Shown here piece after piece: positions 45,307 through 59,371 of a stretch of DNA of 64,000 nucleotides (positions within the stretch are counted from its first letter, which is position 1; the number at the start of each line of letters is the position of its first letter). Source of the stretch: Clostridium sp. Marseille-P3244 (GTDB lineage Bacteria > Bacillota > Clostridia > Lachnospirales > Lachnospiraceae). The position numbers and the translations under genes were made by a program. Under the pieces are notes generated by a model. The model was not told the origin of the DNA, did not search any database, and was given only the letters and a program-made list of their open reading frames with translations. The stretch covers positions 620,001 to 684,000 of the forward strand of contig NZ_LT635549.1 of NCBI RefSeq assembly GCF_900120155.1. The letters are read 5' to 3'.

Positions 45307-45336
45307 GGCATGACTTTATATCCTCTTGCATACATT
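45307..45336 (+). promoter_or_regulatory. Sigma-E-like promoter of spoIIID
   Basis: CATACATT at 45329-45336 fits the sigma-E -10 consensus CATACAnT, 30 bases before the spoIIID start. The -35 region (GGCATGA at 45307-45313) is only a partial match. spoIIID is a sigma-E gene in B. subtilis, so mother-cell control is expected. Confidence 0.6.
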
Positions 45337-45365: not shown

Positions 45366-45509
45366 TTGAAAGATTATATTGAGGAGAGAGCCGTGGAAAT
45401 CGCTGATTATATTATAGAAAATAACGCGACTGTGAGGCAGACGGCGAAACAGTTTCGAATCAGCAAGAGTACGGTACATATAGTTGTAACAAAAAAGAAC
45501 TATTTATAG
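45366..45509 (+). CDS. spoIIID: SpoIIID, N-terminal half, interrupted by an intervening element
   Basis: The mother-cell transcription regulator of sporulation. TTG 45366 follows AGGGGG by six bases. Codons 1-38 (KDYIEERAVEIADYI, NNATVRQTAKQF, ISKSTVH) are the conserved N-terminal helix-turn-helix of SpoIIID. After ACATA at 45476-45480 the frame enters the inserted element, reads a few unrelated residues (IVVTKKNYL) and stops at 45509. The 47-residue product lacks the conserved C-terminal basic helix. The rest of the gene is at 59231-59371. Joining 45480 to 59235 gives exactly 84 codons with stop, an 83-residue SpoIIID of normal clostridial length. Confidence 0.95.
   Translation: MKDYIEERAVEIADYIIENNATVRQTAKQFRISKSTVHIVVTKKNYL
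45476..45490 (+). other. Left attachment site (attL) of the spoIIID intervening element
   Basis: ACATAtAGtTGTAAC here corresponds to ACATAaAGaTGTAAC at 59230-59244; lower case marks the two mismatches. Restoring the invariant HKDVTER of SpoIIID requires the crossover within or next to ACATA, so its central dinucleotide is the likely exchange point. Confidence 0.88.
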
Positions 45510-45685
45510 AGATAAAATATAGGGTGAAGTAAATTACAAATTAGAGAGAGGATGTGTGCTATAGGCATATGTCCTCTTTTGTTTGAAAAGTTAAAAGCTG
45601 GATTATGGAATAGAAGAGATTGGAAATTCGCGAAAATTACAAGACCTTTTCTGGAAAATGTAATAAGCAAATACGCAAATAAGTG

Positions 45686-45716
45686 TTGCTATCACGTTAA
45701 CGTGATGGGCTATACT
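45686..45716 (+). promoter_or_regulatory. MerR-type promoter/operator with 19-bp spacer
   Basis: TTGCTA at 45686-45691 and TATACT at 45711-45716 are 19 bases apart, the over-long spacing typical of MerR-regulated promoters. The perfect 16-bp palindrome ATCACGTTAACGTGAT at 45691-45706 lies between them. It should drive the MerR gene at 45745 and the lipoprotein after it. Between attL and this site (45510-45685) I see no gene. Confidence 0.85.
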
Positions 45717-45744
45717 TTGATTTGCGGAGAAAGGAAAGGCCGTA

Positions 45745-46179
45745 ATGAAAAAAATTAATGAAGTAAGTGGAATTGTAGGGGTGAGCAAACGAACGTTACA
45801 ATACTACGATGATGAAGGAATTCTTCCCATAGAAAGAGCACCTAATAATCACAGAGTATATGACCAACAGACGTTAGAGCAGATCTGGCAGATACTCATT
45901 TATAAAGAAATGGATTTTGAATTAAAGGAGATCAAAGATTTAATTAAGCTCCCACCCGAGCAAAAAGAAATATATTTTATTAGACAGAAAAAGAAAATAG
46001 AAAATAAGATCATCAGAATGAAAGTACAGTTAAAATTTATTTCATTGGCGCAATGTGATAAGTTTCCTATAAGACCGGAAGAGTATTTAGAAAAGACATA
46101 TAGACTGTATATTGAAGAACTGAAAGAAAAAATAAAAGAAGAAATTATGGAAAGGGCAAAAGAAAATGAAAAAGAGTAA
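45745..46179 (+). CDS. MerR-family transcriptional regulator
   Basis: 144 residues: an N-terminal MerR winged helix (INEVSGIVGVSKRTLQYYDDEGIL, in parts; RVYDQQTLEQIWQIL) and a C-terminal coiled coil and helical tail without the metal-binding cysteines of MerR itself. It probably senses a small molecule or peptide and acts on the operator at 45691-45706. AAAGGAAAGG precedes ATG 45745. It overlaps the lipoprotein gene by 14 bases, so the two are translationally coupled. Confidence 0.88.
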   Translation: MKKINEVSGIVGVSKRTLQYYDDEGILPIERAPNNHRVYDQQTLEQIWQILIYKEMDFELKEIKDLIKLPPEQKEIYFIRQKKKIENKIIRMKVQLKFISLAQCDKFPIRPEEYLEKTYRLYIEELKEKIKEEIMERAKENEKE

Positions 46180-47014
46180 AGTAGTATTGGTAATGTGCAG
46201 TGTGATAGTATTGTTGTCAGCATGTGGACCGACAAGAAGTGATGATATGGGAAAAAGTGTGGAAAAGCAAACAGAGGAGAATGAGAAATCTTCAGAAGAA
46301 CATAAACCTAAGAATGTAAAAGTTTCTCCGGATAAATATACTTGGTATATTAAGGATTACGTCGGAAGAAATCTTGCTTCATTTGGATATACGTCCATGG
46401 GCGGTGATAGAATGGATACATATGGAGAAGGTTATTTAAAGCTTGTCTTTGTCAATGGACAGGGAACATATATTAATATTGACGATGAGGAAGAGTTGAA
46501 AAAATATGTTGTAATAAATCAGAATATAACGCCTGATACGGAAATGAAATATGTTTTTGAGAAGGATGAAGGAGGAAAAGAGTTAGACGGATTGATCGAA
46601 CATCAGACATATGAAGAAATCGTACTTTCGATAAAATTAGTAAAAGAATCTGGAAAATCAGAGAAAGATGTGCTGGAAATTAAAGCTTCTCCAGATAAAT
46701 ACACACAATATATTCGTGATTATACAGGAAGAAATCTTGCTACGTGTGGATATGTATCAATGGCAGGAGATTTCAGAGACTCATATGGGGCGGCTAATGT
46801 TAAACTTATTCTTATACCGGAGGATGGATCATATATCGATATCTCTGATGAAGAAGTGCTGAAAGAATATAAAGTAACTCAGCAAAGTATAGAACCAAAT
46901 ACAGAGATGAAATTGGAGTTTATGAAAAATGGAAATGGGGATGAGTACAGTAACCTTGTGGAGAATCAAAATATAAGTGAAATTGAGTTGTATGTGACTA
47001 AGATATCAAAGTAG
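46166..47014 (+). CDS. Lipoprotein with internally duplicated domain
   Basis: 282 residues: signal peptide with lipobox LLSACG (Cys near residue 20), a charged linker, then two copies of a domain of about 110 residues. Copy one has SPDKYTWYIKDYVGRNLASF and SMGGD; copy two has SPDKYTQYIRDYTGRNLATC and SMAGD, showing tandem duplication. It is probably exposed outside the cell. It is coexpressed with the MerR regulator upstream, so it may belong to an envelope-stress or antimicrobial response. No family name recognised. A terminator follows at 47031. Confidence 0.75.
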   Translation: MKKSKVVLVMCSVIVLLSACGPTRSDDMGKSVEKQTEENEKSSEEHKPKNVKVSPDKYTWYIKDYVGRNLASFGYTSMGGDRMDTYGEGYLKLVFVNGQGTYINIDDEEELKKYVVINQNITPDTEMKYVFEKDEGGKELDGLIEHQTYEEIVLSIKLVKESGKSEKDVLEIKASPDKYTQYIRDYTGRNLATCGYVSMAGDFRDSYGAANVKLILIPEDGSYIDISDEEVLKEYKVTQQSIEPNTEMKLEFMKNGNGDEYSNLVENQNISEIELYVTKISK

Positions 47015-47030
47015 AAAAAATTTTAAATAC

Positions 47031-47072
47031 AATGGGGAATTATGATTTAAATGAATCATAGTTCTCCATTTT
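47031..47072 (+). terminator. Terminator after the MerR-lipoprotein operon
   Basis: AATGGGGAATTATGATT pairs with AATCATAGTTCTCCATT with few mismatches, then TTTT. It starts 17 bases after the lipoprotein stop codon. Confidence 0.85.
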
Positions 47073-47274
47073 GAGTATGGAAATTTATTTATCTCTAGTA
47101 TAGAGTTTGTAGTATAAAATATTTTATCAAGGTTTCTATAAAAAAGTAAAAACTCTTTTACGAATAATGAACATTTGGTGTAAAATAATAATGAAAAATT
47201 TTTATGTCCTAAAGTTTGGTTTTACATTTTTATTGATGAGAAGAAAGGAGAATAGCAGAGGCTGCCCAAGGAAG

Positions 47275-48267
47275 ATGGAGAAAAAGTTTGGAAAACTAAT
47301 TACAGGTATATCAGAAAATACAAAAGAATTGTTAGAAAAATCAAAGAACATTGTGGTAAAAACAGTAGATCAAAATGATGATGGAAAAGTAGATTTAGAA
47401 GATGTTTCAGTAATCGCAGAGTCTGTTGGGAGCATTGTGAGAAAAAGTGCAAAGACGTTAAAAGAAACTGCAGATGAAAAGGCGCGTCAAATAGAATTAA
47501 AGACTTTACAGCCAATATTTTTGGAAACTTTGAATGATGCAGATTTTCTTATGCCTAAACTTATAAGAATAACAGAAAGGGATAAAAAATATGCAGAAAA
47601 AGAAGTATGTAAAGGTTCTATTGGGTTTATATCTAATCAAAAAGGACTTTATGTTATAAATATTTTTAGAGATTCTATAGACTTATATGGACTTTTATTT
47701 TATCCAGATCAAGAGAATGAGTTTTATTATGTGGATCCAAGCGAAAGACGAAATTATATTGCGTTAGATGAATATTTTAGTTATTTGAAACAAGTCCGTA
47801 TAAATGAGTTGCAAAAGATCGCACAGGATCTTGGTGCAAAGCACTTTAGGGTTACCTACAAAGAAGAAAAAATATTATTTTCCGAAAGAAATAAAAAGAG
47901 AGATGTAGATCTGCAAAAAACAGGATCTGTAGACATTGAAGAAAATTATACAGATAAAAAATATACTACAGTGGAAATTGCTGCTGAGATGGAGTGCCCA
48001 GGGCATGATCCAGTAAATCCTAAATTGAAGTATATGAGATATGATCCCAGTATAGTAGGGCTTGTGGAAATGCGAATGAACAAACAGGCACCATTGCTTC
48101 ATCAAAAATTCATGTTGAAACTTAGTAATTCTTCTGGGTTAAAAGAGCGGGATGCTATAAAAATTGATGCTGTATTAAAGGGGATGAAATGTACTGGGAA
48201 TTCAACAGTAGTGAATGAGGTACAGAACGAATCCAGAAGATATCTTGAATATGAGATAGATTTTTGA
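47275..48267 (+). CDS. Uncharacterised cytoplasmic protein with EF-hand-like loop
   Basis: About 330 residues from ATG 47275 (AAGGAAG just upstream); the frame stays open back to 47167 but the extra residues look non-coding. Near residue 37, DQNDDGKVDLED fits a calcium-binding DxNxDGxxxxxD loop inside an amphipathic, lysine-rich helical region. The rest shows alternating beta strands. No membrane helix or signal peptide. It lies 48 bases before the DUF4230 gene and is strongly AT-rich. I do not recognise the family. Confidence 0.6.
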   Translation: MEKKFGKLITGISENTKELLEKSKNIVVKTVDQNDDGKVDLEDVSVIAESVGSIVRKSAKTLKETADEKARQIELKTLQPIFLETLNDADFLMPKLIRITERDKKYAEKEVCKGSIGFISNQKGLYVINIFRDSIDLYGLLFYPDQENEFYYVDPSERRNYIALDEYFSYLKQVRINELQKIAQDLGAKHFRVTYKEEKILFSERNKKRDVDLQKTGSVDIEENYTDKKYTTVEIAAEMECPGHDPVNPKLKYMRYDPSIVGLVEMRMNKQAPLLHQKFMLKLSNSSGLKERDAIKIDAVLKGMKCTGNSTVVNEVQNESRRYLEYEIDF

Positions 48268-48315
48268 TTTAATTATATATTCTATTTATACTAAGGAAAA
48301 AGGAGAAGTGCAGTT

Positions 48316-48948
48316 ATGCAGGAAAATGCTACAAAAAAGAAAAAGAATAATAGATTTAGAGAAATGGTTAGTAATCTTTTTGCAAAAAGAATAATAATGC
48401 TACTCGTGTTACTAATAGTTATAGTGCTTATAATTATTGGTGTGAGAAGAGTAGTTTCTTTTGATAATCAGACAACGAAAATAGGATTTGAAGATATTGG
48501 TGAAATAGCGACTCAATCAGCTTACTGCACTCAAGTGAGCGTTACGGATTCATCGAGAAAATTGTTTGGTGCAAAAATTCCATTTACACAGAGCAAATAC
48601 ATATATAGTTATGGTGTAATTATTAAAGCAGGTTTTAATTTTGAAGAGATAGAATGGAGTGAAAAGGAGAATACCATTGAAGTTAAACTGCCGGAAACAA
48701 AAATATTAAGTAGTGAAATTGATACGGATTCTTTTAAGGTATATCATGAAGAAGAAAGCATTTTTAATCAGGTGACTTTAGAAGAGAATAACACGGCACT
48801 TAAAGAATTAAAACAGGAGGCAGAAGAGGAAGCTGTTGCCAATGGATTGCTTGATAATGCACGCAGTAATGCAGAAGCTATTTTGACAGGATTTTTCGGA
48901 CAAGTGTATGATCTGGATCAATATAAAATAGTCTATGAGGATAAATAA
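48316..48948 (+). CDS. DUF4230-family membrane-anchored protein
   Basis: 210 residues with one N-terminal membrane helix (IIMLLVLLIVIVLIIIGV) and an extracytoplasmic DUF4230 domain (IGFEDIGEIATQSAYC, YSYGVIIKAGFNFEEI, VKLPETKILSSEID). This family is widespread in gut Firmicutes and Bacteroidetes with unknown role, and resembles cell-surface or prohibitin-like proteins. AAAAAGGAGAAG precedes ATG 48316. A 27-codon membrane peptide gene follows 15 bases later. Confidence 0.82.
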   Translation: MQENATKKKKNNRFREMVSNLFAKRIIMLLVLLIVIVLIIIGVRRVVSFDNQTTKIGFEDIGEIATQSAYCTQVSVTDSSRKLFGAKIPFTQSKYIYSYGVIIKAGFNFEEIEWSEKENTIEVKLPETKILSSEIDTDSFKVYHEEESIFNQVTLEENNTALKELKQEAEEEAVANGLLDNARSNAEAILTGFFGQVYDLDQYKIVYEDK

Positions 48949-48963
48949 AAGGAGACTTATGAT

Positions 48964-49047
48964 ATGAAAAAAATATTAATAGTACTAGCAGTTATAGTAG
49001 CAATTATTATTTTGTTTTATTTTGCATTATTTCTTACAGCGAGGTAG
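48964..49047 (+). CDS. 27-residue single-TM small protein
   Basis: ATG 48964 with AAGGAGAC upstream encodes a basic MKK start followed by an almost wholly hydrophobic segment (ILIVLAVIVAIIILFYFALF) and a short TAR end. Its position directly after the DUF4230 gene suggests cotranslation and perhaps interaction in the membrane. Too short for family assignment. Confidence 0.55.
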   Translation: MKKILIVLAVIVAIIILFYFALFLTAR

Positions 49048-49082
49048 TTTTGCTTGCAAGACATGATTTAGTGGTCTTTCTA

Positions 49083-49150
49083 TTCATAAAAATAGTGCTA
49101 TTATGAGATGAACGGTAAAACAGTTTAGATTAGTAAGTGTAGAGAGGAGC
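49083..49150 (+). pseudogene. Decayed second copy of the spoIIID 5' half
   Basis: AACGGTAAAACAGTTTAGA at 49111-49129 and its flanks align with GACGGCGAAACAGTTTCGA of spoIIID (45440-45458). Translated, KNSAIMR-stop-TVKQFRL parallels NNATVRQTAKQFRI. The similarity fades within a few bases of the point matching the attachment core. About 60% identity by eye over some 60 bases. It may mark an older junction inside the element. From here to 49446 I see no gene. Confidence 0.45.
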
Positions 49151-49446
49151 TTTCACGAGAGCAAGATCCACTGATGTATTACTATAGCGCAATTTTATTG
49201 CTGAATGTTAATCCTGTATAGTTAGTTTCTTTCGAGTATAAAATATGTGACTTTAGAGTGAGGGATGATAAGATATATGTAGATTAACCGGAGCAACAGG
49301 ATAGGTAGAGCGAAAAATTTCTGAGTGTCATAATGTTCATTGGAAGTTTGTGTCTAGGGTGAATCCTATAGTATATATCACCGGGCAGGGCAGAGACAGT
49401 AAAAATACAAATTGTTAAATATATACATACGAGGAGAAGAACAGTA

Positions 49447-52383
49447 TTGAATGTGTTTAATGAAAATTTACTAAGGGAAGGATTTACAACTGCATACGTG
49501 GATAAAGCGTATTCGTCAAATCTGGCTTATAAGCCGCAGTTCATTTCCAATAATTATAAAGAAGGGCGTAAAGTTCTCTCATCCATTGAGGATGAGCTTT
49601 TGTCATGTAAGGAATTCTTTATCAGTGTTGCTTTTATCACTATGGGTGGAATTACTCCTCTGCTTCAGACATTAAAAGAGTTGGAAATACGTGGGATACC
49701 GGGGAAGATTCTCACAACAGATTACCAGAACTTCAGTGAACCCAGGGCCCTTCGAAAGCTGGCTGAGTTAAGTAATATTACACTGAGAATGTACCGGACT
49801 GATAAGGCGCAGCAAGGTTTTCACACCAAAGGGTATATTTTCAAAAACAAAGAGCTTTATCGGATCATTGTAGGAAGTTCTAATTTGACCTTGAGCGCAT
49901 TGACAAAAAATAGAGAGTGGAATACTAAGGTGGTTTCCACAGCTCAGGGGGAATATACGGAAGATCTGATGGCCGAATTTACAGAACTATGGAATTCAGA
50001 GAATACAGTTGCATTTGATGATTTCATTGAAGAATACGCACTTAACTATCAGATTATCCGAAGTCAGAGAAGGATTGCGAAAGAAACACAAATTATATCG
50101 CTGGAACAATATAAACTGCAGCCCAATTCCATGCAGTTGGGGTTTATTGCTAATCTTGAAAAAATTTGCGCAGCAGGAGAATCGAAAGCACTGCTGATTT
50201 CAGCAACGGGAACGGGGAAAACTTATGCGTCCGCATTTGCACTGCGGGAAGAAGGTGCAAAGAAAGTATTGTTCCTGGTACACAGAGAGCAAATCGCGAA
50301 GCAGGCAATTGCCAGTTATAAAAAAGTCTTTGGAAACACAAGATCTTTTGGATTGCTTTCCGGTAATTCAAAGGATTATGATGTGGATTATCTCTTCTCG
50401 ACCATGCAGATGATGGCAAAGGAAAAGATCCTTACAAAGTTCCAAAAAGATGAGTTTGATACGATTATTATTGACGAGGCTCATCGCACCGGTGCTGCTA
50501 GTTACCAGAATATCATGCAGTATTTTACGCCCCAATTTTGGTTGGGAATGACTGCATCACCAGAACGAACAGATGCTTTTGATGTTTATGCGGCTTTTGA
50601 TCATAATATTGCGTATGAGATACGACTTCAGCAGGCACTGGAAGAAGATCTGCTGTGTCCGTTTCATTATTTTGGAATCACGGATCTGCAGATTGATGGT
50701 AAAGCTATAGATGAAAATACCGGGCTGAAAGATTTTAATAGACTTACCAGTGAGGAGCGTGTCAATTACGTGATCGAGCAGATGGAGTATTATGGTTATT
50801 GTGGAAAGAGGCCGAAAGGGTTGGTTTTCTGCAGCTCCAAGAAAGAAGCCTGCGTCTTGAGTGCAAAATTTAATGAACGAGGATATCGAACACTGGCATT
50901 GACAGGAGATGACAGTCAGGAAAAACGAGAGAATGCGGTTGAGCGCCTTGTCCTCGATGATGGAGAAGACAAGTTGGATTATATTTTTACTGTGGATATA
51001 TTTAATGAAGGTGTTGATATACCGGAAGTGAATCAAGTGATCATGCTCCGGCCAACAGAATCACCAATTGTATTTGTACAGCAACTGGGACGTGGCCTCC
51101 GGAAAGCAGATGAAAAAGAATATGTAGTGATCCTGGATTTCATTGGGAATTATAAAAATAATTTTATGATACCGATCGCGTTGTCTGGAGACAGAAGCTA
51201 CAATAAGGATAATATCCGGCGGTATGTGCTGGAGGGAGAACGGATTATTCCGGGCTCTTCGACGATCCATTTTGATGAAATATCACGAAAAAGAATTTTT
51301 GCGGCCATTGATAATGCAAATTTCAGCGATATTAAGTTGATCAGAGAGAATTATAAAAATCTGAAAAATAAACTGGGACGAATTCCGGATCTGAAAGATT
51401 TTGATGATTACGGAGAAATGGATGTCCTTCGTATTTTTGATAATAACAGTCTGGGGTCTTATTATAAGTTTTTGGTTAAATACGAAAAGGAATATACAGT
51501 CAGACTTTCGTCTGCAGAAGAAAAAGTGGTCGAATTTATTTCAAAAAAGCTGGCCAGCGGGAAACGGATTCATGAACTTGCCATGCTCAATCGTATGCTG
51601 ACTTACCACCATGGATTTTTTAATCTATGGAAAAAAGATCTGTCAAATGCTTATGGAATAGAGCTGCAGGAAAAAACGATCAAAAATGTGGTTAATGTAA
51701 TGACCAATGAATTTCCTTCCGGTTCAGGAAAGAAAACCTATGCAGACTGCGTTTTTCTGGAGAGAACGGGTATGGGGGAATATGATATATCGCAGGATTT
51801 TGAAAAAATGCTGGAAAATCCTGAGTTCTATAAGATTGTAAAAGAACTGGTTGAGTTTGGTGTTTCAAGATATAAAGAGAATTACAGTCACAGATATCAG
51901 GATACAAATTTCGTGCTTTATCAGAAATATACTTATGAGGATGTATGCAGGCTTCTGGAATGGGAAAATAACGAGGTTCCATTGAATTTGGGCGGATATA
52001 AGTATGATCGGAAAACGAAAACATTTCCAGTATTTATTAATTATGATAAGGATGATGATATAAAAGATACGATCAAATATGAAGACCATTTTGAGAGCCC
52101 GAACAGACTGGTTGCAATATCAAAGCAGAGCAGAACAAAAGAGTCTGAAGATGTGCAGAATTTTCTTCATGCAAGAGAGCGTGGAATTAATGTAGAGTTG
52201 TTCGTTCGCAAAAATAAGGATGATAAGATATCAAAAGAATTCTATTATCTGGGAAGGATGACAGCAACTGGAAAAGCAGAAGAGTTTATTATGGCAAACA
52301 CGGATAAGACGGCGGTAGAGATTGAATGGGAGTTAGATACTCCGGTACGCGAAGATATCTACGAGTATATTGTAAATAATTAG
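49447..52383 (+). CDS. PLD-DEAH helicase-DUF3427 protein, probable defence helicase
   Basis: 978 residues. A phospholipase-D-like nuclease domain (HTKGYIFKN..., GSSNLTLSALT near residues 130-160) precedes a superfamily-2 helicase with Walker A ATGTGKTYASAF (about residue 255), DEAH box IIDEAHRTG (about 341) and motif VI QQLGRGLRKAD (about 544), then a C-terminal DUF3427 region. This architecture recurs in mobile or defence islands, commonly with a NUDIX gene as here (12 bases downstream). Start TTG 49447 with GAGGAGAAG upstream. No methyltransferase is present, so it is not a classical restriction system. Target unknown. Confidence 0.88.
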   Translation: MNVFNENLLREGFTTAYVDKAYSSNLAYKPQFISNNYKEGRKVLSSIEDELLSCKEFFISVAFITMGGITPLLQTLKELEIRGIPGKILTTDYQNFSEPRALRKLAELSNITLRMYRTDKAQQGFHTKGYIFKNKELYRIIVGSSNLTLSALTKNREWNTKVVSTAQGEYTEDLMAEFTELWNSENTVAFDDFIEEYALNYQIIRSQRRIAKETQIISLEQYKLQPNSMQLGFIANLEKICAAGESKALLISATGTGKTYASAFALREEGAKKVLFLVHREQIAKQAIASYKKVFGNTRSFGLLSGNSKDYDVDYLFSTMQMMAKEKILTKFQKDEFDTIIIDEAHRTGAASYQNIMQYFTPQFWLGMTASPERTDAFDVYAAFDHNIAYEIRLQQALEEDLLCPFHYFGITDLQIDGKAIDENTGLKDFNRLTSEERVNYVIEQMEYYGYCGKRPKGLVFCSSKKEACVLSAKFNERGYRTLALTGDDSQEKRENAVERLVLDDGEDKLDYIFTVDIFNEGVDIPEVNQVIMLRPTESPIVFVQQLGRGLRKADEKEYVVILDFIGNYKNNFMIPIALSGDRSYNKDNIRRYVLEGERIIPGSSTIHFDEISRKRIFAAIDNANFSDIKLIRENYKNLKNKLGRIPDLKDFDDYGEMDVLRIFDNNSLGSYYKFLVKYEKEYTVRLSSAEEKVVEFISKKLASGKRIHELAMLNRMLTYHHGFFNLWKKDLSNAYGIELQEKTIKNVVNVMTNEFPSGSGKKTYADCVFLERTGMGEYDISQDFEKMLENPEFYKIVKELVEFGVSRYKENYSHRYQDTNFVLYQKYTYEDVCRLLEWENNEVPLNLGGYKYDRKTKTFPVFINYDKDDDIKDTIKYEDHFESPNRLVAISKQSRTKESEDVQNFLHARERGINVELFVRKNKDDKISKEFYYLGRMTATGKAEEFIMANTDKTAVEIEWELDTPVREDIYEYIVNN

Positions 52384-52395
52384 CGGAGGACTAAA

Positions 52396-52788
52396 ATGAA
52401 AACAGTAAAGGTAGTTGCGGCAATCATAATAAACAATAATAGAGTGTTTGCCACACAGAGAGGATACGGTGAGTTCAAGGATGGCTGGGAATTCCCGGGC
52501 GGCAAGATTGAACCGGGGGAGACACCGCAGGAAGCGCTTGTACGAGAAATAAAGGAAGAACTGGATACTGAGATTGAAGTAAAAGATTATCTGGAAACAG
52601 TGGAGTATGATTATCCGGAATTCCACCTGTCAATGGATTGCTTTTTCTGTAGGATCAAGTCAGGAGAGCTTGTGTTGAAAGAGCATGAGGCAGCGAAATG
52701 GCTGACAGCGGAGACTCTGGACAGTGTGGATTGGCTGCCTGCAGATAAGGGATTGATAGAACAAGTCCGTAATAGGATTAAATTATAA
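52396..52788 (+). CDS. NUDIX hydrolase (MutT-like)
   Basis: A 130-residue nucleoside-triphosphate pyrophosphohydrolase with a canonical NUDIX box, GGKIEPGETPQEALVREIKEEL, split here as GGKIEPGET and REIKEEL. It resembles 8-oxo-dGTP and (d)CTP hydrolases. Coupling to the helicase gene upstream suggests a joint function, for example nucleotide sensing or depletion during phage attack; that is inference. GCGGAGG lies upstream of ATG 52396. Confidence 0.9.
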   Translation: MKTVKVVAAIIINNNRVFATQRGYGEFKDGWEFPGGKIEPGETPQEALVREIKEELDTEIEVKDYLETVEYDYPEFHLSMDCFFCRIKSGELVLKEHEAAKWLTAETLDSVDWLPADKGLIEQVRNRIKL

Positions 52789-52989
52789 ATTGGGCGTTTA
52801 TGCTATAGTTATATTTTCTAATACTAGAGCCATTGAAAGTTGAATCAGTGGCTCTTTTTTAATTTCAAAAATTGGGAGAATATCTATCCGTTTTGGTTAT
52901 CTTTTGGATTTTGGAACAGAGCGAGGGGCGGATTATGGACTGGAAACAGTGTATAGTGTTCTGGGTGCCAGGTAAACAGAGGGAAAAAG

Positions 52990-53181
52990 ATGATCATTAT
53001 GATCAATCTTTCCCTTCAGCAGATAAAGAATCCGGAAGATGAGATGCATAAAAAGATTTATGACCGGACAAAAAAATGTGTGCCGGTTCAGTTCGATGGG
53101 GAAAGCAGGCGTCAAGCTGCGGGAAAAGATAAAATGCAGCAATTCAAAAAGATGCTGCTGGAAGCGGAGGAAACTATATAA
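52990..53181 (+). CDS. Possible 63-residue protein or gene remnant
   Basis: ATG 52990 with GAGGG about 10 bases upstream opens a basic, soluble frame (KNPEDEMHKKIYDRTKKC, KMQQFKKMLLEAEET). A second overlapping frame from 52935 is also open for 35 codons. The stretch 52789-53257 otherwise holds nothing I recognise. I cannot tell a real small gene from a remnant. Confidence 0.3.
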   Translation: MIIMINLSLQQIKNPEDEMHKKIYDRTKKCVPVQFDGESRRQAAGKDKMQQFKKMLLEAEETI

Positions 53182-53257
53182 AATGCCTTTAAAATCTATT
53201 CTAATCTGTGACTGATTTTCATAGGCTGTAAAAAATGGACAAGGAGGTGGGACTGCC

Positions 53258-53434
53258 GTGAAGAGGAAAAAACTGAATTACCGCTTTCATGATCCAAATG
53301 ATCCGGCAGTTGCTGCCGAGTATATATTGAAGGTGTTTATTGAGGCGAATCAGAAAAAGGTGGAAGAGGTGATCAGAAAGGCGAGTATGGAGAAACAGAT
53401 ATCGGAAAATGAAGGAATACGAATTCAGGTTTGA
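53258..53434 (+). CDS. 58-residue conserved-type small protein
   Basis: GTG 53258 has a strong AAGGAGGTG site. The product is soluble and charged, with NYRFHDPNDPAVAAEYIL and a helical VFIEANQKKVEEVIRKA segment. Small proteins with this RFHxPN...ILKxFIEANxxKVE pattern are common beside recombinases and integrative elements of Lachnospiraceae, as far as I recall. A recombination accessory role is possible but unproven. Confidence 0.6.
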   Translation: MKRKKLNYRFHDPNDPAVAAEYILKVFIEANQKKVEEVIRKASMEKQISENEGIRIQV

Positions 53435-53636
53435 AGATATGTTTTTTGAGATGAAAATCATCTGATACGATATTGCATCAGGTGATTTTTTATCTTAAAA
53501 CAGCACAAATCAGGGATTACATAGAAAAATATGAGATTTTATCTCAAATATTGTTTACAAAATGGGAGAAATGAATATAATAGAGGGTGAGAGAATATAA
53601 AATTGTGGTGTTGAAATAAAATGGAGGTAAACACAA

Positions 53637-54863
53637 ATGTTATGCCAGTTTACAGTAAAGAATTTTAAAAGCATTCGTGATGAAATGACATTTGACATGC
53701 AGGCAGCCGCCATTTCAGAGCATGAAGACAGGGTGATCAAAGATAGAGACGGAGAATTATTTCTTCCGGTATCAGCGGTTTACGGACCGAATGGCGGGGG
53801 AAAATCCAATGTGCTGGAGGCACTGCACAGTCTGGTGTTTAAAGTGCTGAGACCGTTATATGCGACCAGTGATAATGAAAATGCGGCAATCAGAATAAAA
53901 AGAATATTGATCGAACCGTTTGCTTTTTCTGCTGAAACGGTGAATGCGCCGACAGAGTTTGAATTATTTTTCAGGACTGCATTAGCAGAATACCGCTACG
54001 AGTTGACTGTCAGGAAAGATGTGATCGAGTATGAAAGGCTGGACCGGGTAAAACTGGAAACCGGCCGCAGATCAGCGCTTTTTGAAAGAGATGAAAATGA
54101 AATCACGCTGAAAGGTGTTTTTTCAAAATTAAAGATAAGTGAAGATTTATCCGAGACTTTGCCACTGCTTTCTTATTTGGGTATTACTTATGCCAAGAAT
54201 GAAGTGGTGCAGGATGTATTGAGCTGGTTCGATGATGGAATCGATTTCTTGAATTATGGAAATCCGCGCCAGGAACTGCGTATGGCGATTTCAAATTCGG
54301 AACATGTGAAGAAACTGATGCTGGATATGATACAGGAAATGGATCTGGATATTGTGGACTTCCGAGTGGAAGAGAGAGAACATGATCGGATTGAAGTATT
54401 TACAAAACATGTCGTTGACGATTACGAGACGGAATTAAATCTGTTTGATGAATCCAGCGGAACAAAGAAGCTATTTGGCCTGCTTCCGTTTATTGCGAAG
54501 AGCCTCTCAGTGGGAACAACGCTGGTAATTGATGAACTAGATGCTAAAATACATCCGGTTTTGCTCCGATACATTATTATGATGTTCAATAATATGAAGA
54601 TAAATAAACATGGGGCTCAGTTGATTTTTACATCTCATGATTTATCTACGATGAATAGCGAAGTGTTCCGGAGAGATGAAATCTGGTTTGTTGCCAAAGG
54701 AAATAAAGAGAATTCTAAATTATATTCTCTGGTAGAGTTTAAAAATGATAAAGGCGAGTCAGTACGGAAAGATGCAAAATTCGACAAACAGTACCTGGAA
54801 GGGAAGTATGGGGCTGATCCGTACCTCAGAAAAATCATAGATTGGGGGAAGGTTAATGCCTAA
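53637..54863 (+). CDS. AAA family ATPase, RloA/AbiLi-like
   Basis: 408 residues, ABC/SMC-type ATPase: N-terminal FTVKNFKSIRDEMTFDM, Walker A YGPNGGGKSNVLEAL (about residue 50), Walker B TLVIDELDAKIHP (about 298) and H-loop FTSHDLSTM. It overlaps the RloB-like gene by eight bases. The pair matches the two-gene AbiL/RloAB phage-exclusion arrangement, in which an ATPase partners a TOPRIM-like protein. GGAGG lies eight bases before ATG 53637. Cytoplasmic. Confidence 0.88.
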   Translation: MLCQFTVKNFKSIRDEMTFDMQAAAISEHEDRVIKDRDGELFLPVSAVYGPNGGGKSNVLEALHSLVFKVLRPLYATSDNENAAIRIKRILIEPFAFSAETVNAPTEFELFFRTALAEYRYELTVRKDVIEYERLDRVKLETGRRSALFERDENEITLKGVFSKLKISEDLSETLPLLSYLGITYAKNEVVQDVLSWFDDGIDFLNYGNPRQELRMAISNSEHVKKLMLDMIQEMDLDIVDFRVEEREHDRIEVFTKHVVDDYETELNLFDESSGTKKLFGLLPFIAKSLSVGTTLVIDELDAKIHPVLLRYIIMMFNNMKINKHGAQLIFTSHDLSTMNSEVFRRDEIWFVAKGNKENSKLYSLVEFKNDKGESVRKDAKFDKQYLEGKYGADPYLRKIIDWGKVNA

Positions 54864-55551
54864 AAAAGCCGGAATGGAGGCATGGAAGAAAAAACGACGC
54901 AAGGAATATCTGGAAAAGAGAGAATTCAGATATTATATCTTCTGTGAGGGTCAGCAGACGGAGCCATTATACTTTGAAGGATTTAAAAGATATATTGAAG
55001 ATAATCCGATTTACCGGGATATGGTACTGATCGAAATAGAACCATGTCAGTCAGAAACGATGCGCGTGATTGGTATGGCGGAGAGATATGTGAAAAAGAA
55101 CAAAATCCAAAAAGGACAGGTTTGGTGTGTATATGACAAAGACAGCTTTCCACCGGAAGATTTTAATGGAGTTGAACAGCGGGCAAGGAAGTTGAGCCAG
55201 GAGAATCTAGATTTGCAGTATCACGCAGCATGGAGTAATGAGTGTATCGAATTCTGGTTTCTGCTGCATTTTGCATACTATACGTCAAATAATCATCGAA
55301 CCGAATATATTTCATTTCTGAATGATAAGTTCCGGGATTTGGGAATTGGAAAATATCAGAAGAATATGAAAAGCATATTCGAGATTCTGATGGAAAAAGG
55401 AAATCCGAAGCTGGCGATACGGTATGCGAAGAGGATCATAAAAGATGGACAAGGGAAAACGCCGACAGAAATAGCACCGGGAACGAAGGTGTATGAGTTG
55501 GTGGAGGAACTGGCGAAGTATTTGCCGGAGGAGATACGTTTGAAGTATTGA
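54856..55551 (+). CDS. RloB-family (TOPRIM-like) protein, AbiLii-like
   Basis: 231 residues matching RloB (PF13707). IFCEGQQTEPLYFEGF gives the invariant Glu and WCVYDKDSFP the DxD of a TOPRIM-type metal site, so it is probably a nuclease. It is translationally coupled to the AAA ATPase, comparable to Gabija or OLD proteins where the two domains are fused. A likely abortive-infection effector; direct evidence is absent. Confidence 0.88.
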   Translation: MPKKAGMEAWKKKRRKEYLEKREFRYYIFCEGQQTEPLYFEGFKRYIEDNPIYRDMVLIEIEPCQSETMRVIGMAERYVKKNKIQKGQVWCVYDKDSFPPEDFNGVEQRARKLSQENLDLQYHAAWSNECIEFWFLLHFAYYTSNNHRTEYISFLNDKFRDLGIGKYQKNMKSIFEILMEKGNPKLAIRYAKRIIKDGQGKTPTEIAPGTKVYELVEELAKYLPEEIRLKY

Positions 55552-55564
55552 GAGGAGAATATGA

Positions 55565-57532
55565 TTGGAAACAGTAGAAAAAATAAAGAAATTACAAACA
55601 TTACCGTGGTATGCTTTGCATGATATAGCTATTCAGAATGGCGTTGAGCAAAAAGAAGTTAATGGAAAAGATAAAGAAGTAATAATAGAAAAAATACTGT
55701 CAAATGGTATCTTAACTGATGAAGAAATCGAACAATATGTAAACGACTATATTTATGGGGATAGGATTACATTTACATTATGGACTTTTCAAGAGAGTTT
55801 GAAAGATGAGGATTTTGATGAGATTTGGACCTTAGTGAATACGGAAGATGAGTATTTGTCTATTTCTGGGTATAGAAAGATGAAAATTCTTTCTGTTAAT
55901 GATTATGAGAATCGTGTTGAAATTTTATATGTATATAGTAAAGAATATTCATATGTAAATGAAGAGGGCAAAAATGATGGAGTTTGGGAACAGCATAGAG
56001 GATGTCTGTGGGTTGGAAAAAAAGCAACATATCTTGCGTGTATGAGCAAACATGAAAAAATGACAACATTTATTACTCATTTTATCTCAGACACATTATC
56101 AAATCCGATAACTCAAATCAAGCCACCTAAATCTGCAATCGATAAATGTACAAATTTTAAAGCGATTAGCAGGATGGTTTTACAAGGTCAAGCTGGAGAA
56201 AAGACGATTGTATCGCGAGCAGGTGGAATTACAGATAAACAAGAAGAAGAAATTGGAAGAATTCGTGCCGAAAGAATAGATACTTCTGGAAGTTTTATTG
56301 CAGAAATTACGGATGATATAGATGCAACTATCAAATATAATATAAGAAAGGGCAGCATTGGTATATATCGTCACTTGCCAGCACCTGTTTTGTTTGAGTG
56401 GTCTGAAAAAGCCATTGAAACAATTTTTGAGGAAATTGAAAATTTAAAAGGGAAACCGGCAGAAGAAATTTACAAAGAAACAGGACAAGAGATAAAATGG
56501 ACAGGAATTTCTACAGCAGAGTATCCACAATTAAATTGGTATTTGACACAGGTAATATCTGCCCTTGAGCAAGAAAATTATGAGGTACAGATTCCCCAAG
56601 ATAAATTAGCTGTTTTACAAAATAATAAATTTTTTCTCAAGTTTATTAGAATTTATTGTAACTCATGTGATTCCTATGAAATACCGTATTGTGCTAATTG
56701 CGGAGCAGAATTACAAATAATTAAAGGGAAAATTCAGCCATGTGGATGTGGTGCTCCAATTAGGATTCAATGTTCAGAGGGGCATAACGGTTGTGATATT
56801 GTTCCATGGTTTATAGGTACAGAATCATTAAAGCGAATGATAGATAAAAATATAAGAAAAATTTTTAAGGATTCAACATTAAATTATAATATTTTTATTG
56901 TGGATGATAAGCTTAATATTATTAACGGAATAGATAATATACAGACGGAAGTTGAAGTTCCATTTGAAGAAATAGAATGTTTTAAACATGACACGATAAC
57001 TTTATCGAATAGATTAAAAGCATATGCAGTAAACATGAATGAAAAATGTAAATCGGGAGTTTGTTCTAATAAAAAAATTAATGAGTGCATAAAAAATAAG
57101 GATATGGTTTGTCTGCCTAAATTGTTCTATTCGATTTTGCCTAATTATCGTCCCCAACCGCATAAAGGAACAGAATATGGTGATGTATCTTCTCAAGTGC
57201 GAATTGGCAATAAATCATATGAATTGCTAGGAATTATAAAAAAGAATAGTAAAAATAATTCAAGGGGGAATAAAACAGTTGATGATAAAATTTCAAGTCC
57301 GTTATTATCAACTTCATCAGAAGGTCAGGAAATAATACGACAGTTTATAGAACAAGGAATGTCAGACAATCGTTGCGAAATTATAGCGGTAATTGTTCCG
57401 CAGTATATAGATGCGGGACTAAAAGGCACCTTAAGATATCTGGCAAAATTATCAGGTAAAAAAGTAACATTTATTGAATTAGATGAGGTATGCGAACTAA
57501 TTTCTATGAATGAAAATATAAGAGTTTCATAA
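55565..57532 (+). CDS. Unknown 655-residue zinc-ribbon protein, third gene of the RloAB-like operon
   Basis: TTG 55565 lies 14 bases after the RloB-like gene, with AGGAG upstream. The N-terminus (LPWYALHDIAIQNGV, VIIEKILSNGIL) resembles a SAP/Rho-N-type nucleic-acid-binding motif. Around residues 365-405 two CxxC-type pairs (CNSCDSYEIPYCANCG, CGCGAPIRIQC) form a zinc ribbon. The C-terminal 110 residues (YELLGIIKK, EGQEIIRQFIEQ, VTFIELDEVCELI) have the alternating beta-alpha look of a restriction-endonuclease fold, but I cannot assign catalytic residues. Very AT-rich. It may be a nuclease or sensor added to the AbiL-like pair; family unknown. Confidence 0.65.
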   Translation: METVEKIKKLQTLPWYALHDIAIQNGVEQKEVNGKDKEVIIEKILSNGILTDEEIEQYVNDYIYGDRITFTLWTFQESLKDEDFDEIWTLVNTEDEYLSISGYRKMKILSVNDYENRVEILYVYSKEYSYVNEEGKNDGVWEQHRGCLWVGKKATYLACMSKHEKMTTFITHFISDTLSNPITQIKPPKSAIDKCTNFKAISRMVLQGQAGEKTIVSRAGGITDKQEEEIGRIRAERIDTSGSFIAEITDDIDATIKYNIRKGSIGIYRHLPAPVLFEWSEKAIETIFEEIENLKGKPAEEIYKETGQEIKWTGISTAEYPQLNWYLTQVISALEQENYEVQIPQDKLAVLQNNKFFLKFIRIYCNSCDSYEIPYCANCGAELQIIKGKIQPCGCGAPIRIQCSEGHNGCDIVPWFIGTESLKRMIDKNIRKIFKDSTLNYNIFIVDDKLNIINGIDNIQTEVEVPFEEIECFKHDTITLSNRLKAYAVNMNEKCKSGVCSNKKINECIKNKDMVCLPKLFYSILPNYRPQPHKGTEYGDVSSQVRIGNKSYELLGIIKKNSKNNSRGNKTVDDKISSPLLSTSSEGQEIIRQFIEQGMSDNRCEIIAVIVPQYIDAGLKGTLRYLAKLSGKKVTFIELDEVCELISMNENIRVS

Positions 57533-57547
57533 TATTAAGAAAATATA

Positions 57548-57578
57548 TCCGGCGTATATGCGCCGGAATTTTCTTTTC
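57548..57578 (+). terminator. Terminator before the recombinase gene
   Basis: TCCGGCG and CGCCGGA pair around TATATG and are followed by ATTTTCTTTT. It ends the defence operon and isolates the recombinase gene, which therefore has its own promoter; TATAAT at 57604-57609 is a candidate -10 box. Confidence 0.85.
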
Positions 57579-57663
57579 GCTCTGTACAAATCAGTCTTAT
57601 GTGTTATAATCAAAATATAAATAGTAACTGATTGTAATAGATGTAACAGAAAGGCAAATGCTT

Positions 57664-59235
57664 ATGAACATCGCAGCCTATTGCCGTGTTTCCACGGATA
57701 AATCCGACCAGCTGAACAGTTTAGAGACCCAGAAGCAATTCTTCACTGAATATGTGCAGCGTACCGGCGATCATCTCGTTAAAGTATATGCGGATGAAGG
57801 CATTTCCGGAACCAAAATCAAAAACAGAAAAGAGTTTTTACAAATGATGGCCGATGCGGAGCACGGCCTTTTTGATATGGTTGTTGTCAAGGATATTTCC
57901 CGTTTTGCCAGGAACACAGTGGATCTGCTCCAGAATGTACGGAGATTAAAGACATTGGGAATAGAGACACAGTTCCTCACTGCCAATATGACCAGCATGG
58001 GCAACAGTGAATTCGTCCTGACTATATTCGGCGCCCTGGCGCAGGAGGAGAGCGCCAATACATCAAAGCGTATCAAATTTGGCAAGAAAGTGAATGCGGA
58101 GAAAGGCCGGGTGCCAAATATTGTTTACGGCTACGATAAAACGATAGGGGATTATTTCAATCTGACGATCAATGAGAAAGAGGCGAACGTGATCCGTCAG
58201 ATTTTCCAGTGGTACATTCAGGACGGTTTTGGCTGTGCGTCCATTTCCAATAAATTGAATGAACAGGGGATTCGGACGAAACGGAACTGCCGATGGAGCC
58301 AGAATGCCATCAGCCGTGTCCTTACGAATGAACTCTATACCGGAAAGATAATTAATGGCAAACAGGAAGTAGCAGATTTCCTTACCGGTCAGCGGAAGGA
58401 AAAGGAAGAGACGGAATGGCTTGTGACGGAGCGGCCGGAATTGAAGATCATTGATGAGGAAGTGTTTGAGCAGGCACAGAAGATCCTCCATTCCCGTCAT
58501 CAGGCATTTAACTTGAATCATGAAAGGCAGAGCAACAAGTATCTTTTCTCCACGCTGATCAAGTGTAAAGAATGCGGCTGGTCGTTCCGTCGGACGGTCC
58601 GTAAGTATAAGAACACCTATGTACGTTGGGTGTGCTCAGGGCATAACGGACGGGGCGCAGATTCCTGCCCTAATACGGTGACACTGGATGAGGAGGAATT
58701 GATTGAAGTTCTACAGGAATATTTTTCAAATGTATTGAAGAATAAAAAGAAAGTGATCCAGTATGTGGTGAAGGAATTCCAGCGGGTATATAAGGCGAAA
58801 GATGAAAATGTGGAGTACGAAAAAGAACTGCGGGATAAGCTTTCCAAATTGAAAGCCATGCGTGAGAAATATATGGACATGTACACTGATGATCTGATTA
58901 CACGCCAGGAGCTCAATGACCGGATCGGCGGGGCAAGGCAGGAGATCGAGCGTCTGGAAAATGAACTGAAAATGGTTTCCTATCAGATCACCAAGGGCGA
59001 CCAGTTGGAGGAACTATTGAATACAACTTTCAGGGAAATTGAGGATATCACGGATGTGCACCAGATGACGAACACGCAGCTGAAAAAGATCATCCAGAAG
59101 ATCGAGGTGGACAAGGACGGAAATGTGGATATTTATCTGAAACTTCTGGGTGAACTGGGGCTGGATGAAACGGTATTGATCGAAGATGGATCTGCTGAAA
59201 ATAAAACAGTTCAAAATCATCACGACCGCACATAA
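57664..59235 (+). CDS. Large serine recombinase of the spoIIID element
   Basis: 523 residues. An N-terminal resolvase domain with nucleophile in YCRVSTDK and VKDISRFARN; a recombinase domain (ISNKLNEQGIRTK, ISRVLTNELYTGK); a zinc ribbon (CKECGWSFRR..., CSGHNGRGADSCPN); and a long coiled coil typical of phage-type integrases. AAGG nine bases upstream favours ATG 57664 over 57658. Its stop codon TAA at 59233-59235 lies inside attR, so its last residues (HHDRT) come from the junction. In an excised circle the frame would run on 17 codons. It is the evident catalyst for excision and restoration of spoIIID. Confidence 0.93.
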   Translation: MNIAAYCRVSTDKSDQLNSLETQKQFFTEYVQRTGDHLVKVYADEGISGTKIKNRKEFLQMMADAEHGLFDMVVVKDISRFARNTVDLLQNVRRLKTLGIETQFLTANMTSMGNSEFVLTIFGALAQEESANTSKRIKFGKKVNAEKGRVPNIVYGYDKTIGDYFNLTINEKEANVIRQIFQWYIQDGFGCASISNKLNEQGIRTKRNCRWSQNAISRVLTNELYTGKIINGKQEVADFLTGQRKEKEETEWLVTERPELKIIDEEVFEQAQKILHSRHQAFNLNHERQSNKYLFSTLIKCKECGWSFRRTVRKYKNTYVRWVCSGHNGRGADSCPNTVTLDEEELIEVLQEYFSNVLKNKKKVIQYVVKEFQRVYKAKDENVEYEKELRDKLSKLKAMREKYMDMYTDDLITRQELNDRIGGARQEIERLENELKMVSYQITKGDQLEELLNTTFREIEDITDVHQMTNTQLKKIIQKIEVDKDGNVDIYLKLLGELGLDETVLIEDGSAENKTVQNHHDRT

Positions 59236-59244
59236 AGATGTAAC
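59230..59244 (+). other. Right attachment site (attR) of the spoIIID intervening element
   Basis: ACATAaAGaTGTAAC, matching attL at 45476-45490 with two mismatches. It overlaps the recombinase stop codon and begins the 3' half of spoIIID. An AGATGTAAC also occurs at 57639-57647, just before the recombinase gene, possibly by chance. Confidence 0.88.
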
Positions 59245-59371
59245 CGAGCGGCTCCTCCAGATCAATCCCTCCCTTGCCAGGGAAGCCCGAAAGGTGCTTG
59301 ACACAAATAAATCTGAACGGCATATCCGGGGTGGGATGGCTACGAGAGAGAAATATCTTCATCAGCATTAG
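59231..59371 (+). CDS. spoIIID: SpoIIID, C-terminal half
   Basis: From CAT 59231 the frame reads HKDVTERLLQINPSLAREAR, then KVLDTNKSERHIRGGMATRE and KYLHQH before TAG at 59371. This is the highly conserved second half of SpoIIID, including the C-terminal basic region that contacts DNA. In this configuration it lacks promoter and start; an ATG at 59186 inside the recombinase gene is in frame but has no ribosome site. It is preserved without any frame damage, which argues that the split gene is still used. A strong terminator follows. Confidence 0.95.
   Translation, partial: HKDVTERLLQINPSLAREARKVLDTNKSERHIRGGMATREKYLHQH

Follow-up and report, generated by a model that had tools for sequence, protein, structure and literature searches.

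A serine-recombinase island splits spoIIID at one codon in gut Lachnospiraceae and is a candidate for excision during sporulation

The sporulation gene spoIIID of Clostridium sp. Marseille-P3244 lies in two pieces within the 64,000-bp stretch analyzed here, referred to below as the window (G000:C3:620001-684000). Its 83 codons are interrupted at His38 by an insert of 13,754 bp bounded by two copies of the pentamer ACATA. A TTG at 45366 opens the gene, the 38 codons of the left piece end in CAT (45477-45479), and the stop codon of the right piece ends at 59371; the repeat consists of codon 38 flanked by the final base of codon 37 and the initial base of codon 39. When the pieces were rejoined, 115 and 137 bases gave 252 bases, that is, 83 codons and a stop, with KSTVHKDVTERL spanning the join. 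The initial annotation of this DNA had described a spoIIID gene cut by a 13.75-kb insert and restorable to an exact 83-codon gene, and the junctions, lengths and frame were all as it had read them. Both halves are open reading frames (ORFs), and each alone scored above the 27-bit cut-off of the Pfam SpoIIID profile (PF12116). A second copy of the gene, which the annotation had left to be looked for, was not found with this profile, as there was no third SpoIIID match in the 2.97-Mb assembly of 3 contigs. The large serine recombinase (LSR) at the end of the insert points toward the right junction, in agreement with the annotation, and its stop codon is formed by the repeat and the next base. 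Upstream of the 5′ half lies a promoter-like sequence, which is sigma-E-like by its resemblance to the consensus; it recurs upstream of spoIIID in relatives, and CATA-type boxes also precede many spoIVA genes.

We found the same arrangement in many other genomes. The best 80 of 225 matches to the LSR among named GTDB contigs were 76-98% identical to it, and in 76 of these 80 a spoIIID 3′ half lay no more than 500 bp downstream of the recombinase gene, while a simpler motif search for the adjoining half detected 51. The four exceptions were L089, with the 3′ half about 2.4 kb further on, L091, L111 and L119. Hosts include Blautia, Extibacter, Schaedlerella, Pseudoflavonifractor, Agathobaculum and Angelakisella. 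An LSR 98% identical to that of the window sits on a contig of Candidatus Mediterraneibacter avicola, and the host DNA outside the element is 79-89% identical to that contig; we take Mediterraneibacter to be the genus of the host. We assembled 36 complete elements, namely 34 fetched from other genomes, that of the window and that of G023; the 32 measured ranged from 3.5 to 18.4 kb. All 34 fetched elements and G023 share the same break with related ends, which is more than chance would give, so that the search for the same element elsewhere proposed in the annotation yielded a family. Both spoIIID halves were open in 36 of 36 elements (32 by an automated test, and 4 whose 5′ half reads STIH by eye). 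That the split is an assembly artefact is hardly credible, since the window is an internal part of a 2.6-Mb contig and 35 other elements, among them that of the single-contig genome G292, have this structure too.

We searched 50 of the 80 genomes for SpoIIID, picked by hand with recognized isolates first and metagenome-assembled genomes after them. SpoIIID matches were present in 48 of the 50, and 46 had half-length matches only, 40 of these with both halves. G481 carries an intact spoIIID without a half beside its recombinase, and G501 and G508 have no SpoIIID match. An intact copy in G524 was considered as an excised sub-population and rejected, because its contig is only 73-87% identical to the split locus and thus belongs to another organism. 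In 61 genomes (that of the window and 60 relatives), spoIIID pieces broken at codons 34-43 occurred in many species. Among 397 genomes of the family, 247 had a SpoIIID match, 241 of them above the cut-off, and 29 of these were half-length only. Both halves were present in 21 of the 29, and 12 of these 21 were examined as elements, 6 of the 12 by identical coordinates or direct loci; the rest of the 21 may include a second type of break. Judged from these comparisons, dozens of further gut species have spoIIID broken at this codon by relatives of the window element.

The ends of the elements resemble attachment (att) sites of serine integrases. The consensus left arm is approximately TGGTWGTAACAAAATAGAACGG and the right arm approximately AAACCGTTCTAATTANTGACAACCA, and when the arms were joined into the reconstructed phage-type site (attP) they matched as an inverted repeat at a mean of 17.2 of 27 positions (range 12-22; window 14), compared with 8.3 (standard deviation 2.3) for shuffled arms, 5.0 for attL and 8.7 for attR. 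The center of symmetry is the CA of codon 38, and a CA-centered inverted repeat is what is expected of a serine integrase attP.

Besides the halves of spoIIID, the elements have two core genes. By ORF clustering (at least 40 residues, with the spoIIID halves and antisense ORFs set aside), every one of the 36 elements has the LSR, and 28 have a short gene on the plus strand, coding for about 58 residues, a number that tblastn raised to 34, leaving L197 and L200 without it. None of Pfam, NCBIfam and PHROGs assigns the small protein to a family; its Pfam and PHROG matches, with E values of 0.03-0.2, were taken as chance. It has 2938 homologues, the best 120 of which are named, if at all, hypothetical proteins, and the gene was absent from the two sigK-splitting loci examined (L279, L280). 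The predicted fold consists of two helices (mean predicted local distance difference test score 77, predicted template modeling score 0.43) and had no PDB match. In sequences that are related to one another, and with patterns picked after viewing them, CATAG stood upstream of the small gene in 31 of 34 elements (mean of dinucleotide shuffles 3.35, maximum 8), and a longer form, in which a pyrimidine-TA box precedes CATA by 11-16 nt, in 23 of 34 (mean 0.32, maximum 3). In front of the recombinase, 2 of 35 elements have CATAG and none has the longer form. We take the CATA-type motif to resemble the Bacillus sigma-E consensus. A motif common to host genes was also considered and rejected, because the exact motif was not commoner genome-wide than its reversed control; it therefore belongs to the elements, and the sigma factor is unproven. 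The small gene and its motif are conserved among the elements, the motif is not shared with host promoters, and we regard the protein as a candidate recombination directionality factor. In the leader of the recombinase gene, 25 of 35 elements have GTAACnGAA (window 57640-57660), which resembles an attP arm, so that binding of the recombinase to its own promoter is possible; upstream of the leader, 11 of 35 match a strict sigma-A pattern. An RNA fold of the leader (z -2.0) was not used.

Relatives of this module were also found outside spoIIID. A first attP pattern, which fits only 7 of 32 or 8 of 36 reconstructed sites, had no match in viral contigs, whereas a corrected pattern, which fits 22 of 36 including the window, gave 29 viral-contig matches, three of them with both an LSR and the small gene. 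These three contigs (50, 69 and 119 kb) are identical over their overlaps; their LSR is 72% identical to that of the window, the small gene lies 2.3 kb upstream of it, and a near-perfect CA-centered palindrome (20 of 27) stands at the LSR end with no spoIIID beside it; the neighbors include anaerobic ribonucleotide reductase genes of phage families. A fourth contig of 62 kb, recovered by recombinase search, carries an LSR of 69% identity, a palindrome of 18 of 27 and the small gene just upstream, with an endolysin, an exonuclease V-like helicase and a DNA ligase as neighbors. The modules of these temperate-phage-like contigs (L330, L331) are like that of the window element in LSR, small gene and attP, and differ from it in being unintegrated, without an adjoining spoIIID half and surrounded by phage genes. 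These contigs indicate that the reconstructed attP occurs in nature in unintegrated form and that recombinase and small gene stay together outside the spoIIID elements as well; such phages probably integrate in spoIIID.

Other breaks of spoIIID were seen as well. A second break lies a few bases further on, where 3′ pieces (codons 39-81) follow TTGACACCACCA or a similar sequence (L033, L035, L036, L041, L042, L045, L046 and L048, in G004, G006, G007, G020, G025, G027 and G030), and several of these genomes also have a full spoIIID immediately before the piece; the ends in G020 suggest another symmetric attP with a GATG core. In L050 (976-2778) of G042, from another family of the order, a recombinase 37% identical to that of the window directly precedes a spoIIID 3′ half, an independent recombinase lineage at nearly the same site. 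Arrays in which a 5′ half with an attL-like arm is followed by 4-9 kb of cargo and a full spoIIID were found at L291-L294, L298 and L037 (G432, G360, G171, G281, G222 and G010), with no relative of the recombinase or the small gene in the stretch, and G522 and G507 carry several 5′ halves. These arrays have the look of cassettes joined by accretion or of tandem elements that were cured in part.

The remaining genes of the window element are listed in Table 1. Those between 49447 and 55551, with type IV restriction-like, PDC-S07 and AbiL-type genes, resemble a defence island inside a developmental gene. Across the 36 elements, RloA-like ATPases were present in 12 and RloB-like proteins in 9. 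Of the ten proteins of the window element that were scanned with Pfam, none matched a phage domain. We also considered known names for the LSR and rejected them: against NCBIfam equivalog models it scored 149.8 and 135.9 bits as the staphylococcal cassette chromosome recombinases CcrB and CcrC (cut-off 900), and 136.6 bits as XisF, the excision recombinase of the fdxN element (cut-off 375).

Table 1. Positions of the split gene, the attachment sequences and the genes of the element in the window
Feature	Position	Strand	Basis or remark
Promoter-like sequence of spoIIID	45308..45336	+	GCATGAC, then CATACATT at 45329-45336
spoIIID 5′ half	45366..45480	+	Codons 1-38 and first base of codon 39; 63.2 bits
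Left core repeat ACATA (attL core)	45476..45480	+	Sequence
Left element arm (attP right arm)	45481..45510	+	TAGTTGTAACAAAAAAGAAC
MerR-family regulator	45745..46179	+	Pfam
Three cargo ORFs	46166-47014, 47167-48267, 48316-48948 (DUF4230)	+	ORF list, Pfam
PLD/helicase/DUF3427 protein	49447..52383	+	Pfam; PADLOC type IV restriction enzyme model, 738 bits
NUDIX protein	52396..52788	+	Pfam; PADLOC PDC-S07
CATAG box upstream of small core gene	53220..53224	+	Window copy without CTATTT part
Small core gene	53258..53434	+	58 residues, GTG start; candidate recombination directionality factor
AAA ATPase, RloA-like	53637..54863	+	Pfam; PADLOC AbiLi
RloB-like protein	54856..55551	+	Pfam; PADLOC AbiLii
655-residue protein	55565..57532	+	Neither Pfam nor PADLOC match
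Sigma-A-like boxes TGTACA-N16-TATAAT	57583..57610	+	Upstream of recombinase
GTAACAGAA, attP-arm-like, in recombinase leader	57643..57651	+	Sequence
Large serine recombinase (LSR)	57658..59235	+	Resolvase, Recombinase and zinc-ribbon domains
Right core repeat ACATA (attR core)	59230..59234	+	Sequence
spoIIID 3′ half with stop	59230..59371	+	74 bits

We propose that the 13,754-bp mobile island is excised during sporulation by its own LSR, probably together with the 58-residue factor, so that spoIIID is rejoined in the manner of the skin element of sigK, and we put the probability of this reading at roughly three in four. It draws on the split gene with its open halves and single copy, the recombinase with its core repeat and symmetric attP, the recurrence at one codon and the attP found in nature. 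The skin-like anatomy claimed in the initial annotation is borne out by exact restorability, the single copy and the dedicated recombinase; the reading is well supported by comparative anatomy and experimentally unproven. Sigma-E is the first to become active in the mother cell, and it would read the CATA-type promoter and switch on the small gene there, the recombinase having been made beforehand from a sigma-A-type promoter. The promoter of the small gene cannot need SpoIIID, because SpoIIID would not yet be made before excision. The small protein and the recombinase would then recombine attL with attR, the element would leave as a circle, and the promoter-like sequence upstream of the 5′ half would read the whole of spoIIID. 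The forespore would keep the island with its defence-like cargo, and as the mother cell dies, the spore would carry the element on; a mobile island could be tolerated in spoIIID because it leaves when the gene is needed.

Several results weigh against excision in sporulation. The attP of the window, at up to 3 mismatches, occurred in 0 of 8 genomes and no excised window element was found, nor was an excised form of the other elements seen in the 80 genomes with a pattern that fits only 8 of 36 attPs. LSR distances were barely correlated with SpoIVA distances (Mantel r 0.13, 780 of 5000 permutations, 21 genomes), indicating that the LSR spreads horizontally and that the insertions may be recent; an ancient, vertically inherited switch is unsupported by this test, and the intact halves may reflect recent insertion. 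G035, although 98% complete, has a 3′ half without a 5′ half, and no sporulation record of a carrier was found. These observations favor an alternative in which a mobile defence island merely inactivates spoIIID and its carriers have lost sporulation or manage without SpoIIID, and the leftover 3′ pieces beside full genes in relatives, which are mostly undamaged, fit it too. The initial annotation had argued from undamaged halves to a live switch; the halves are open as stated, whereas a live switch is not established by them, because with horizontal spread and undamaged leftover pieces, such halves alone are weak evidence. Nor was purifying selection decisive as proof. The ratio of nonsynonymous to synonymous polymorphism (pN/pS) was about 0.29-0.32 for split halves in the two upper bins of synonymous polymorphism (pS) against 0.035-0.094 for intact genes, in sets unmatched in divergence, which also counts against excision in sporulation. 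Between G000 and G023, both split, we counted 6.5 synonymous and 1.5 nonsynonymous differences in the 5′ half and 19 and 1 in the 3′ half, with common descent of the two insertions unestablished; comparisons of this type left out both halves of G477, G478, G029 and G035 and the 5′ half of G012. Inactivation is nevertheless at odds with carriers that have half-length SpoIIID only (46 of 50) and yet keep both halves open in every complete element, with the conservation of the small gene and its upstream motif while the cargo turns over, and with SpoIVA, kept in 78 of the 80 genomes searched (no non-carrier baseline), all but G496, with a split spoIIID, and G501, without SpoIIID. In G000 itself, sigK is whole and a sigE-like gene is present. 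We consider mere inactivation unlikely.

A second alternative concerns the control of excision, which might occur at random or under stress in growing cells, as in an ordinary integrative element, with restoration of spoIIID as a by-product free of developmental control. It would account for the sigma-A-like region upstream of the recombinase, strict in a minority of elements, and for phages carrying the same module, and it gains from the unproven sigma factor of the small gene. In 16 genomes the exact small-gene motif had 34 matches and its reversed control 94, 14 of the 34 lying in elements, and the window copy lacks the CTATTT part. Against it, the assemblies searched contain the integrated form only, and the CATA-type motif stands before the small gene and not before the recombinase. 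We judge this alternative improbable.

For excision in sporulation as part of a wider scheme, our confidence is lower than for excision alone, though still in its favor: a single integrase module, common to phages and phage-defence islands of gut Clostridia, would have become specific for His38, a codon of the recognition helix, and, through a directionality factor of its own, would have made the onset of the mother-cell program depend on a DNA-cutting checkpoint, and about one in ten spoIIID-bearing Lachnospiraceae species (29/241 half-length only, 21 with both halves, 12/21 confirmed as this element type) would be without SpoIIID until the chromosome is rearranged.

Among spore formers, sigK and a number of further genes in certain Bacillus and Clostridium strains are known to be rearranged in development. 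In C. difficile skin, the recombinase gene CD1231 has a sigma-A promoter, and the 72-residue factor CD1234 has a sigma-E promoter helped by SpoIIID (PMC5025042). The spoIIID element shares with skin a serine recombinase in a mother-cell gene and probably also a sigma-A recombinase gene and a small separate factor giving direction and cell type; it differs in that the target of skin is sigK (PMC5025042), and SpoIIID-dependence of the factor would be impossible here before excision. The small protein of the window element, in addition, has no named relative. The gin element in gerE of Bacillus cereus is likewise a non-phage island in a short transcription-factor gene, with restriction-modification cargo and symmetric att sites, whereas gerE is late, gin has three recombinase genes and it was reported from a few Bacillus strains (PMC5595907). 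SP-beta in spsM, vfbin in spoVFB, yin in yabG and the kamA elements are also excised in sporulation to rebuild a mother-cell gene, but they are prophage-like and have other targets, none being in spoIIID (PMC10747680, PMC6957869). Reported targets of such elements are thus sigK, spsM, spoVFB, gerE, yabG and kamA (PMC5595907, PMC10747680, PMC6957869), and we found no element in spoIIID in the parts consulted of open-licence PubMed Central (PMC) papers, in line with the initial annotation, which knew of none.

To the initial annotation, the analysis adds a family at one target codon, with a candidate directionality factor, defence-like cargo and phage relatives bearing a natural attP. If excision in sporulation is correct, a considerable fraction of the Lachnospiraceae of the gut, for which spores are a likely route between hosts, would rearrange the gene of an early mother-cell regulator, and predictions of sporulation from gene presence would misread carrier genomes. 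An essential developmental gene would then be able to accommodate a mobile island with defence-like cargo, and the family would provide a new set of recombinase, factor and att sites for genetics in these bacteria.

Further variation in sporulation genes was noted along the way. Strains of Anaerostipes hadrus with different sporulation outcomes are reported to differ in spoIIID among other genes (PMC12888040). Of 58 genomes of the genus, at least 9 have sigK itself in two parts, for example at G001:C5:855429-862945, and G023 has both sigK and spoIIID split. Finally, the SpoIVA match of G516 falls into two parts of a single contig, separated by about 252 kb (L287, L288: C20:236830-237279, 489491-489769), a possible rearrangement or split gene.

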